Origin: Pseudomonas yamanorum
Lineage (GTDB): Bacteria > Pseudomonadota > Gammaproteobacteria > Pseudomonadales > Pseudomonadaceae
Assembly: GCF_900105735.1 (NCBI RefSeq)
Contig: NZ_LT629793.1
Coordinates: 124,001 to 188,000 of the forward strand
Reading direction: 5' to 3'
DNA length: 64,000 bases
Shown here: in pieces, positions 52,682 through 55,462 of the stretch
Layout of the letters: each line of letters begins with the position of its first letter
How positions within the stretch are numbered: position 1 is the stretch's first letter
Translations under genes and position numbers: made by a program
The notes under the pieces: generated by a model
Databases searched by the model: none
Told to the model about the DNA's origin: nothing
What the model saw: the letters and a program-made list of their open reading frames with translations, nothing else

Positions 52682-52852
52682 ATGCCCGTGACTACCACCA
52701 AATATGTGATCAAGTACAAACTCAACGGTGAGCGCCGCTTCGAATTCGCCCAGCTGCAAGCGGGCAGCATTGAGGAAGCCAAGGAAGCACTGGCAAAAAT
52801 GCACGATGCCAGCGATGAAATCACCGATATCAATGTGAGCAAGGCCCTGTAA
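52682..52852 (+). CDS. Small hypothetical protein, 56 residues
   Basis: A short alpha/beta protein (VTTTKYVIKYKLNGERRFEF, then SIEEAKEALAKMHDASDEI). Translation is coupled to the DUF1883-like gene, with AGGA directly before the ATG. I do not recognise a family. Its TAA stop lies inside the first Ada-box-like sequence. Confidence 0.7.
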   Translation: MPVTTTKYVIKYKLNGERRFEFAQLQAGSIEEAKEALAKMHDASDEITDINVSKAL

Positions 52853-52864
52853 TTCGAGCGCAAG
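52851..52864 (+). promoter_or_regulatory. Ada-box-like site 1, upstream of the 2OG oxygenase
   Basis: AATTCGAGCGCAAG agrees at all but two positions with the E. coli ada operator as I recall it (AATTAAAGCGCAAG). The following GCATCGGAGTG is shared with site 2 at 54321. It lies 71 bases before the 2OG oxygenase start, at the right distance for activated Ada to recruit RNA polymerase. Confidence 0.65.
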
Positions 52865-52934
52865 CATCGGAGTGTCGTAACGCTGGCGACTTCCTAGACT
52901 GGCAGCCCTTATCCGCTGCCACAGGAACTCGTCG

Positions 52935-53651
52935 ATGCCTTCTACCTCACTTAAAGAGCGCCTGGCCAAGCTGGACTGGCGCGCGATCGAGCAAGACCTT
53001 GACCAACAGGGCAACGCAATTATTCCAGCGCTGCTGGATCAGCAAGAATGTGCGGAGCTCTGCGGCCACTACCCGCAGCACGAACGGTTTCGCTCCCACG
53101 TGCTGATGGCCAGGCACGGCTTTGGTCGGGGCGAGTACAAGTATTTCCGCTATCCGCTGCCCTCCCGGGTCAGCGAGTTGCGTGAACAGCTGTATCACTA
53201 CCTGGCCCCCCAGGCCAATCGCTGGAACGAACAGATGAACCTGCCGATCACTTACCCGGCACGCCATGCTGACTTCATTACCCGTTGCCACGCTGCGGGC
53301 CAACAGCGCCCTACCCCGTTATTGCTGCAATACGGCCCCGGCGACTACAACTGCCTGCACCAGGATCTGTACGGCGAACATGTGTTTCCCTTACAAGTGG
53401 CCATCCTGTTGTCGCAGCCGGGAGAAGACTTCCGTGGCGGCGAACTGGTGCTGACCGAACAGCGGCCACGCATGCAATCCCGGGCCCAGGTCGTACCGCT
53501 GAACAGGGGCGACGCCGTGATCTTCGCGGTTAATCAGCGGCCCATGCCCAGCGTGAGAGGGTTTCATCGGGTGACCTTGCGCCATGGGGTCAGTGTTCTG
53601 CACAGTGGTACGCGGCATACCTTGGGAGTGATTTTTCACGATGCGCAGTAA
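52935..53651 (+). CDS. 2-oxoglutarate/Fe(II) oxygenase next to alkB
   Basis: A 238-residue protein with a jelly-roll oxygenase signature. It has HQD (in CLHQDLYG), GEDFRGGELVLTEQRP and a C-terminal His and Arg in FHRVTLRHG or TRHTLGVIFH. An N-terminal helical part (LKERLAKLDWRAIEQDLDQQ) precedes it. It differs from AlkB but overlaps alkB by 11 bases and has an Ada-box-like site upstream. It is therefore probably part of the alkylation response, perhaps repairing a lesion or modified protein that AlkB does not. Actual substrate unknown. Confidence 0.8.
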   Translation: MPSTSLKERLAKLDWRAIEQDLDQQGNAIIPALLDQQECAELCGHYPQHERFRSHVLMARHGFGRGEYKYFRYPLPSRVSELREQLYHYLAPQANRWNEQMNLPITYPARHADFITRCHAAGQQRPTPLLLQYGPGDYNCLHQDLYGEHVFPLQVAILLSQPGEDFRGGELVLTEQRPRMQSRAQVVPLNRGDAVIFAVNQRPMPSVRGFHRVTLRHGVSVLHSGTRHTLGVIFHDAQ

Positions 53652-54321
53652 GACCGATCCTGGAGCAACCGCCGATTTGTTCGCCGACGAGGCCTTGCAA
53701 CAGCCCCCGGGACGCGAACAAATCGGTGAGCAATCCTACGTTCTCAGAGGCTACGCCCTGCCCTGGGTCGAGCGCTTGCTTCCGGAACTGCGGCGCGTAC
53801 TGGCTCAATCGCCGTTCCGGCAAATGGTCACGCCGGGCGGCTTTACCATGTCCGCCGCTTTGAGCAGCTGCGGTGAACTGGGTTGGACGACCGATCCCAC
53901 CGGCTATCGCTACTCTGCGATTGACCCCAACAACCAGCAACCCTGGCCAGCCATGCCCGAGGCGCTACGCCAATTGGCGCTCATGGCGGCGGCGGACGCG
54001 GGTTTCGAGGATTTCGAACCGGATGCCTGCCTGATCAACCGCTATGTGCCAGGCGCGAAAATGTCCCTGCATCAGGACAAGAACGAGCGCCGCTACGCCG
54101 CTCCAGTGATCTCCGTGTCACTGGGTTTGCCGGCGATCTTTCTGTTCGGCGGCCATGAGCGGAGCGACACAGCGCAAAAAGTCTCGCTGTTCCATGGCGA
54201 TGTCGTGGTATGGGGCGGTGTGGATCGCCTGCGCTTTCACGGCGTGATGCCGATCAAGCCCGGCACTCATCCGGTCATGGGGCCGCAGCGCATCAACCTG
54301 ACGTTTCGCACAGCCGGATGA
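53641..54321 (+). CDS. alkB: AlkB DNA/RNA demethylase
   Basis: A 226-residue 2OG/Fe(II) dioxygenase that removes methyl groups such as 1-methyladenine and 3-methylcytosine from DNA. Visible features are the substrate loop WTTDPTGYRYSAIDP, NRYVPGAKMSLHQDKNE (Fe-binding His-x-Asp), LRFHGVMP (His) and the 2OG Arg residues in RINLTFR. The ATG lies inside the end of the 2OG oxygenase gene with GGGAG upstream. Ada follows after 76 bases. Confidence 0.95.
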   Translation: MRSKTDPGATADLFADEALQQPPGREQIGEQSYVLRGYALPWVERLLPELRRVLAQSPFRQMVTPGGFTMSAALSSCGELGWTTDPTGYRYSAIDPNNQQPWPAMPEALRQLALMAAADAGFEDFEPDACLINRYVPGAKMSLHQDKNERRYAAPVISVSLGLPAIFLFGGHERSDTAQKVSLFHGDVVVWGGVDRLRFHGVMPIKPGTHPVMGPQRINLTFRTAG

Positions 54322-54334
54322 ATTTGACCGCAAG
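54321..54334 (+). promoter_or_regulatory. Ada-box-like site 2, upstream of ada
   Basis: AATTTGACCGCAAG plus the following GCATCGGAGT agree with site 1 at 22 of 24 positions. It lies 63 bases before the ada start, so Ada probably activates its own gene separately from the alkB operon. Confidence 0.65.
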
Positions 54335-54397
54335 CATCGGAGTGATGGGAATGCCACCGGGGACTAACCTGGCATTCTTCAACCAGGAGCCACCACC

Positions 54398-55462
54398 ATG
54401 ACCGCGCGCCACGCCACCGAACAAGACCCACGCTGGGCGGCCATCGTCGCCCGCGACGCCAAAGCCGACTTGACCTTCGTCTATGGCGTGAAAACCACCG
54501 GTGTGTACTGCCGCCCCAGCAGTTCCGCACGGCGGCCGCGCCCGGAGAACGTCGAGTTCTTCGATACTCCGCAACAGGCCGAAGCCGCGGGCTACCGACC
54601 CAACAAACGTTCGTCGGGCGACCAGACCCAAGTGGCCGCACGCCACGCGCAACTGGTGGCAGCCGCCTGTCGGCACATCGAACAGGCCGAAACCCTGCCA
54701 GCCCTTGAAGACCTGGCCACCCTCGCCGGCCTGAGCCCGTTTCATTTCCATCGGGTGTTCAAGGCGGTGACAGGCCTCACACCCAAGCGCTACGCCAGTG
54801 CCCATCGCTCGCGCAAAGTACGCGACGGGCTCAAGGACCAGCATTCGGTGACCGATGCGCTGTACGACGCCGGCTTCAATTCCAACAGCCGTTTTTATGA
54901 GGCCGCCGACCAGTTGCTTGGCATGAAGCCTGGCGACTACAAGGCGGGCGGCACTAACACGGACATTCGGTTTGCCGTCGGCCAATGCTCGTTGGGCGCA
55001 ATTCTGGTGGCGCAGAGCAATCGCGGTGTGTGCGCAATCCTGCTGGGGGACGACCCGGACAAACTGGTGCGCGACCTGCAGGACCAGTTTCCCCGCGCCA
55101 ATCTGTTGGGCGCCGATCACGACTTCGAACATTTGATCGCCCAGGTGGTGGGCTTTATCGAGGCGCCGGCCCTGGGCCTGAACCTGCCCCTGGATCTGCG
55201 TGGTACTGCGTTTCAGGAACGGGTCTGGCAGGCCTTGCGAGAAATCCCGGTGGGTTGCACCGCCAGCTATGCAGAGATTGCCCAGCGCATCGGCGCCCCG
55301 ACCGCCTATCGCGCCGTGGCCCAGGCGTGCGGTGCCAACAGCCTGGCCGTGGCGATTCCCTGCCATCGGGTGGTGCGCGCCGACGGTAATCTATCGGGCT
55401 ACCGCTGGGGCGTTGAGCGCAAGCGGCAGTTGCTGGAGCGCGAAAGCCCGGCCGGTGCCTGA
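54398..55462 (+). CDS. ada: Ada: methylated-DNA repair methyltransferase/activator with a degenerate zinc site
   Basis: A 354-residue full-length Ada. The N-terminal domain keeps the methyl-acceptor Cys38 in GVYCRPS. The other three zinc ligands of E. coli Ada are replaced: Cys42 by Ser (CRPSSSAR), Cys69 by Asn and Cys72 by Ser (RPNKRSS). An AraC-type HTH follows (LATLAGLSPFHFHRVFKAVT), then the O6-methylguanine methyltransferase domain with IPCHRVV intact. Repair of O6-methylguanine should work. How Cys38 is activated without the Zn(Cys)4 centre is unclear, although Ada-box-like sites are kept upstream. No frameshift is seen. Confidence 0.93.
   Translation: MTARHATEQDPRWAAIVARDAKADLTFVYGVKTTGVYCRPSSSARRPRPENVEFFDTPQQAEAAGYRPNKRSSGDQTQVAARHAQLVAAACRHIEQAETLPALEDLATLAGLSPFHFHRVFKAVTGLTPKRYASAHRSRKVRDGLKDQHSVTDALYDAGFNSNSRFYEAADQLLGMKPGDYKAGGTNTDIRFAVGQCSLGAILVAQSNRGVCAILLGDDPDKLVRDLQDQFPRANLLGADHDFEHLIAQVVGFIEAPALGLNLPLDLRGTAFQERVWQALREIPVGCTASYAEIAQRIGAPTAYRAVAQACGANSLAVAIPCHRVVRADGNLSGYRWGVERKRQLLERESPAGA

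Follow-up and report, generated by a model that had tools for sequence, protein, structure and literature searches.

The window, the whole 64,000-nucleotide stretch of Pseudomonas yamanorum DNA analysed here, contains a tight gene run in the order PF09859 dioxygenase, alkB and ada. The PF09859 gene overlaps alkB by 11 bases, and operators of one pattern precede both the first gene and ada. The features are:

52851..52874, plus strand: operator 1, AAT-N6-GCAAG-CAT-CGGAGTG, before the first operon gene (AAT at 52851, GCAA at 52860)
52935..53651, plus strand: PF09859 Oxygenase-NA 2OG-Fe(II) dioxygenase, first gene of the run (Pfam, 283.8 bits)
53641..54321, plus strand: alkB, 2OG-FeII_Oxy_2 (Pfam, 194.5 bits)
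54321..54344, plus strand: operator 2, AAT-N6-GCAAG-CAT-CGGAGTG, before ada (AAT at 54321, GCAA at 54330)
54398..55462, plus strand: ada, a Zn-less Ada of 354 aa (ORF and Pfam)
54431..54613, plus strand: N-terminal Ada_Zn_binding-like domain, residues 12-72, without three of four Zn ligands (Pfam)
54509..54511, plus strand: codon 38, TGC, Cys38, the methyl acceptor position (sequence read)
54521..54523, plus strand: codon 42, AGT, Ser; Cys42 in E. coli (sequence read)
54602..54604, plus strand: codon 69, AAC, Asn; Cys69 in E. coli (sequence read)
54611..54613, plus strand: codon 72, TCG, Ser; Cys72 in E. coli (sequence read)
54644..54943, plus strand: AraC-type double HTH, residues 83-182, with F115/H116/R119 at the B-box reader positions (Pfam, alignment)
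55361..55363, plus strand: PCHR acceptor cysteine, residue 322, E. coli C321 (alignment)

The GCAA of operator 2 lies 68 nt before the ada start. The A box of operator 2 overlaps the alkB stop codon (54319-54321) by one base, and that of operator 1 overlaps the stop (52850-52852) of a 56-aa ORF at 52682-52852. No second full Ada was found in the window's own genome (one contig, 7.09 Mb), which holds three PF01035 matches besides ada, one of them partial.

Ada is the textbook example of activation through methylation of a cysteine bound to zinc, and zinc is credited with making its Cys38 nucleophilic. The window Ada matches Ada_Zn_binding (98.7 bits, residues 12-72), HTH_18/HTH_AraC and the MGMT DNA-binding domain in Pfam, the domain order of EcAda-like proteins. 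Aligned to the solved chains of E. coli N-Ada (40-47% identity), it shares their numbering up to residue 72. The first-pass annotation had read Ser, Asn and Ser at the places of Cys42, Cys69 and Cys72, and both the codons and this alignment bear the reading out: the four EcAda-like positions are C38, S42, N69 and S72. Its companion claim, that Cys38, the AraC-type HTH and IPCHRVV are intact, agrees with the TGC codon, the Pfam matches and the translation. The A-box readers R45/R71 and the B-box readers F115/H116/R119 are all present.

The window Ada and E. coli Ada thus have the three-domain order, C38, R45, R71, the HTH and PCHR in common, and their genes share the AAT-N6-GCAA operator spacing and the alkB operon link (E. 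coli facts from PMC4437013 and PMC3788762). The window Ada differs in lacking Cys42, Cys69 and Cys72, which leaves it without a Zn(Cys)4 centre or a Zn-thiolate electrostatic switch; its operator differs in an additional conserved CGGAGTG. In E. coli Ada, as PMC4437013 states, repulsion between the DNA backbone and the thiolates of C38 and C69 lasts until methylation of C38. Judged from its sequence, the textbook zinc-based damage switch, as described, cannot work at the window Ada. Its Zn-less N-domain is predicted to keep the Ada fold.

An alignment across Pseudomonas had been proposed to see whether the Ser/Asn/Ser form is conserved, and it reveals a large conserved group. Among 220 same-genus ada loci, read one per genome out of 398 genomes searched, 63 have Cys at all of positions 38, 42, 69 and 72 (CCCC), 147 are non-canonical (Zn-less), including L141, whose N-domain start is unreadable, and L197, in which only Cys72 is missing, and 10 have a missing or broken N-domain. 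Cys38 is present in all 146 readable non-canonical loci. Position 42 is Ser in 144 of the 147, position 69 is Ser in 133, Asn in 13 and Cys in one, and position 72 drifts through 13 different residues. The reader residues are retained in 144 Zn-less rows (R45 97%, R71 97%, H116 99%, R119 100%, F115 74%), with residue 115 mostly Y or W when not Phe. The gene neighbourhood also separates the two forms: alkB or a PF09859 gene lies just upstream of ada in at least 99 of the 147 Zn-less loci, a lower bound because many of the stretches read end shortly upstream, and in none of the 63 CCCC loci. Counted alone, the PF09859 gene lies upstream of ada in 61 of the 147 Zn-less loci and in none of the 63 with CCCC; at the CCCC locus L039, both alkB and the PF09859 gene lie downstream of ada. 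At L002 (G000:C1:1276228-1279317), a stand-alone 87-aa ORF at 1360-1623 with the motif FRPCAVC resembles the second half of the Ada zinc domain and scores 24.3 bits against PF02805.

The Zn-less form extends beyond the genus. Among the best 80 of 583 named relatives with a close homologue, a set that overlaps the same-genus one and whose counts are not additive with it, 77 are Zn-less and three CCCC. The Zn-less ones, from Beta- and Gammaproteobacteria, include members of Pseudomonas, Metapseudomonas, Collimonas, Rhodoferax, Bordetella, Ralstonia, Herbaspirillum, Variovorax, Dyella, Dokdonella, Montanilutibacter and Cellvibrio. In 24 loci from other genera of the same order, 21 are CCCC, and the others are L245 (CSSY), L248 (CASE) and L259 (no N-domain).

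Two Ada-box-like sites had been reported in the operon at first pass, and they are real and conserved in relatives: the exact core GCAAGNNNCGGAGTG has two matches in the 7.09 Mb genome, both in this operon. With at most one mismatch allowed, GCAAGNNNCGGAGTG gives 32 matches genome-wide against 30 for its reversed form as a control, so that the exact matches alone are distinctive. The pattern ahead of ada, AAT-N6-GCAAG-N3-CGGAGTG, holds both the AAT-N6-GCAA operator of EcAda-like systems, present twice at the protein's own operon, and the B box plus X box (CGG) of Cada2-like operators, as GCAAG-N3-CGGAGTG.

A proximal core (at most one mismatch) is found in 141 of the 147 Zn-less loci, and RRTT stands at the A-box place in 139 of these 141, against 10 of 54 in the reversed-core control; in the named set, 70 of 77 Zn-less loci have the proximal core, 67 with RRTT. 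The A box is kept in 57 of 59 Zn-less proximal-core loci without adjacent alkB and is thus not merely the alkB stop codon. By a crude test, a stop triplet occupies the A-box place in 33 of 82 alkB-adjacent sites and 16 of 59 others. The 63 4-Cys loci, read with up to two mismatches and with many cores distal, are not a like-for-like comparison: 24 have a proximal core, which in eight comes with TT in the A-box position, and 30 cores lie further up. The CGG part also occurs with the 4-Cys relatives L246, L247, L249, L255 and L263, so a Cada2-like operator does not set the Zn-less form apart.

The N-domain-less Pseudomonas loci, which have the same HTH-MGMT part, provide a contrast. All five that have a proximal core (L142, L145, L147, L148 and L151) keep the B box and CGG and have no A box, a Cada2-like architecture within Pseudomonas. 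The other loci among the ten without an N-domain reading are L128, which is frame-broken rather than deleted and keeps its A box, and four without a proximal core. The loss of the A box together with the N-domain is the strongest sign in these data that the A box may still be read by the Zn-less domain, and it is correlative, resting on five loci of which L147 and L148 are close relatives.

Comparison with two further systems places the variant more closely. In P. putida, according to PMC3788762, ada is arranged as alkA-ada with alkB about 3 Mbp away, which differs from the oxygenase-alkB-ada run of the window; this Ada comes from the same genus and keeps R45/R71 and the B-box readers. Caulobacter Cada2 is activated through its C-terminal PCHR cysteine and, as PMC10957082 describes it, resembles the window system in an operator with a GCAA B box and CGG, a PCHR domain and no usable 4-Cys switch. 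It lacks the A-box domain and has RLHD, whereas the window system has the A-box domain, Cys38 and an A box. The A-box domain, absent from Cada2-like regulators, is present and conserved in the window Ada, and at the place matched by eye to RLHD its residues 165-168 are RFYE, which is mostly the same in P. putida-type 4-Cys loci. A search of the open-licence literature found nothing on an A-box-domain Ada without the zinc cysteines. By protein and operator sequence, a Zn-less Ada with an A, B and CGG operator fits neither the EcAda-like nor the Cada2-like type and is a new Ada variant.

The first-pass annotation offered two outcomes, sensing by another chemistry or lost sensing. The choice omitted a third, in which the N-domain is a DNA reader and the trigger is C-terminal, as PMC10957082 describes for Cada2. 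The reading preferred here, with a probability of about one half, is of this kind: a Zn-free, A-box-reading Ada that would sit on its own operators without methylation and be triggered through the C-terminal PCHR cysteine, with an additional role for Cys38. With the thiolate cluster gone, repulsion of the DNA backbone by the N-domain would be much weaker. The loss of C69 and two further thiolates means, most simply, that the N-domain could always read the A box, as E. coli Ada does in its methylated state, and Zn-less Ada would then occupy the operators of its own oxygenase-alkB-ada operon. If the A box can always be read, the trigger must lie elsewhere. N-domain-less forms with an intact operator core likewise suggest a trigger outside the N-domain and a genus able to dispense with the N-terminal switch, and by analogy with Caulobacter Cada2 it would be methyl transfer to the PCHR cysteine, residue 322. 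Cys38 would survive as a lone thiol with an extra role, selected in most but not all lineages.

Several observations count against this reading. A wholly C-terminal trigger predicts that Cys38 drifts like position 72, and it does not. Zinc is essential for folding of the E. coli N-domain, according to a review (PMC4999995), and the Zn-less fold is a predicted one. CGG occurs with 4-Cys relatives too, RFYE stands at the place matched by eye to RLHD, and the five N-domain-less loci are few, with such rows branching partly outside the Zn-less group. Cys38 would have either a second role or still be a zinc-free sensor.

The latter is the less probable reading of the two: Cys38 may be a zinc-independent alkylation (or redox) sensor, activated by a Ser-lined, Arg/Lys-rich site, whose methylation or oxidation alters DNA binding. 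Such a zinc-free switch might take its methyl group from phosphotriesters or by direct alkylation. It is supported by the constancy of the residue. On a tree of Zn-less rows that uses the C-terminal part alone, column 38 requires no change, column 42 three, column 69 two and column 72 as many as 22; over columns 12-72 the median is eight, and 17 of 61 columns need none in the 147 loci. Cys38 thus lies in the best-conserved portion of the domain despite its lost zinc partners, T33, T34, G35, Y37 and R67 also require no change, and Ser42 and Ser/Asn69 are nearly fixed. Cys38 is likewise retained in 75 of the 77 Zn-less loci among the best 80 of 583 named relatives, and in 113 of 121 protein rows, that is, the query and 120 listed of 7999 matches, the window's own entry included.

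Against a Cys38 sensor stand forms that keep the domain and replace the residue. It is Gly in the other eight of the 121 rows (two changes on their tree), Arg in L320 and Ala in L327 (Rhodoferax). L320 and L327 still carry an A box (AATT/AGTT), so A-box reading seems independent of Cys38 there. Textbook chemistry, in which zinc makes Cys38 nucleophilic, also speaks against it. These Gly, Arg and Ala forms (P0095, P0096, P0101, P0107, P0108, P0110, P0114, P0118, L320 and L327) make up a natural C38 mutant series.

Loss of sensing, the other outcome named at first pass, would make Ada a constitutive or decaying regulator with an N-domain without function. Three ligands are gone, and some lineages lack Cys38 or the whole N-domain, as such a loss would have it. 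Both dN/dS and the conservation of the operators contradict simple decay. Over 99 Zn-less pairs, dN/dS is 0.088 for the N-domain, 0.101 for the HTH and 0.077/0.060 for the MGMT parts, which indicates that the Zn-less N-domain is under purifying selection at about the HTH level. The A box is co-conserved with the N-domain, the PCHR cysteine is present in 220 of 221 aligned rows (the remaining row has a gap), and the invariant N-domain columns point the same way. Lost sensing is unlikely.

Retention of a metal through other ligands is highly improbable. It would draw on L197 (G041:C1:1644475-1648612), which has four Cys within residues 8-82, namely C38, C42, C69 and one at 74 rather than 72, and on eight Zn-less loci with one extra Cys each in that stretch. 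In 138 of the 147 Zn-less loci, however, Cys38 is the sole Cys within residues 8-82, and no common compensating Cys or His column was found in the 147 N-domains, the most frequent His position, 82, carrying His in only 18. As first claimed, the canonical Zn(Cys)4 site has been lost, and other cysteines filling the ligand places, which were to refute the claim, are not found in these 138 loci. L197 is a possible shifted-ligand intermediate. A sequencing or assembly error in the window genome is refuted, since the same kind of loss recurs in 146 other same-genus loci and in 77 named ones, some of them from genomes of the first set, and the codons vary synonymously (Cys38 is TGC in 128 and TGT in 16 of 144 Zn-less loci).

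The origin of the form is less sharply drawn. On the C-terminal tree (110 rows), the P. putida-type CCCC rows, named by resemblance, with PP_0706 outside the alignment, fall near or within the Zn-less rows, with three changes. The AU test does not reject a single Zn-less clade (p 0.564), and a single ancestral ligand loss is possible. The N-domain-less rows do not all branch within the Zn-less group; one of them, L145, branches beside the Zn-less L042.

As its conservation indicates, the window Ada belongs to a widespread, selectively maintained Ada subfamily without the Zn(Cys)4 site. As the comparison suggests, regulators may have passed from the EcAda-like form to the Zn-less one and on to the N-domain-less (Cada2-like) one. 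In the Zn-less group, what zinc, Cys38 and DNA reading each contribute can be told apart inside a single family, and as a natural group it permits a direct test of the need for the electrostatic switch. If Cys38 should instead prove to be a zinc-free sensor, this would be a new chemistry for the textbook damage-sensing cysteine, in many Pseudomonas and beta-proteobacteria.
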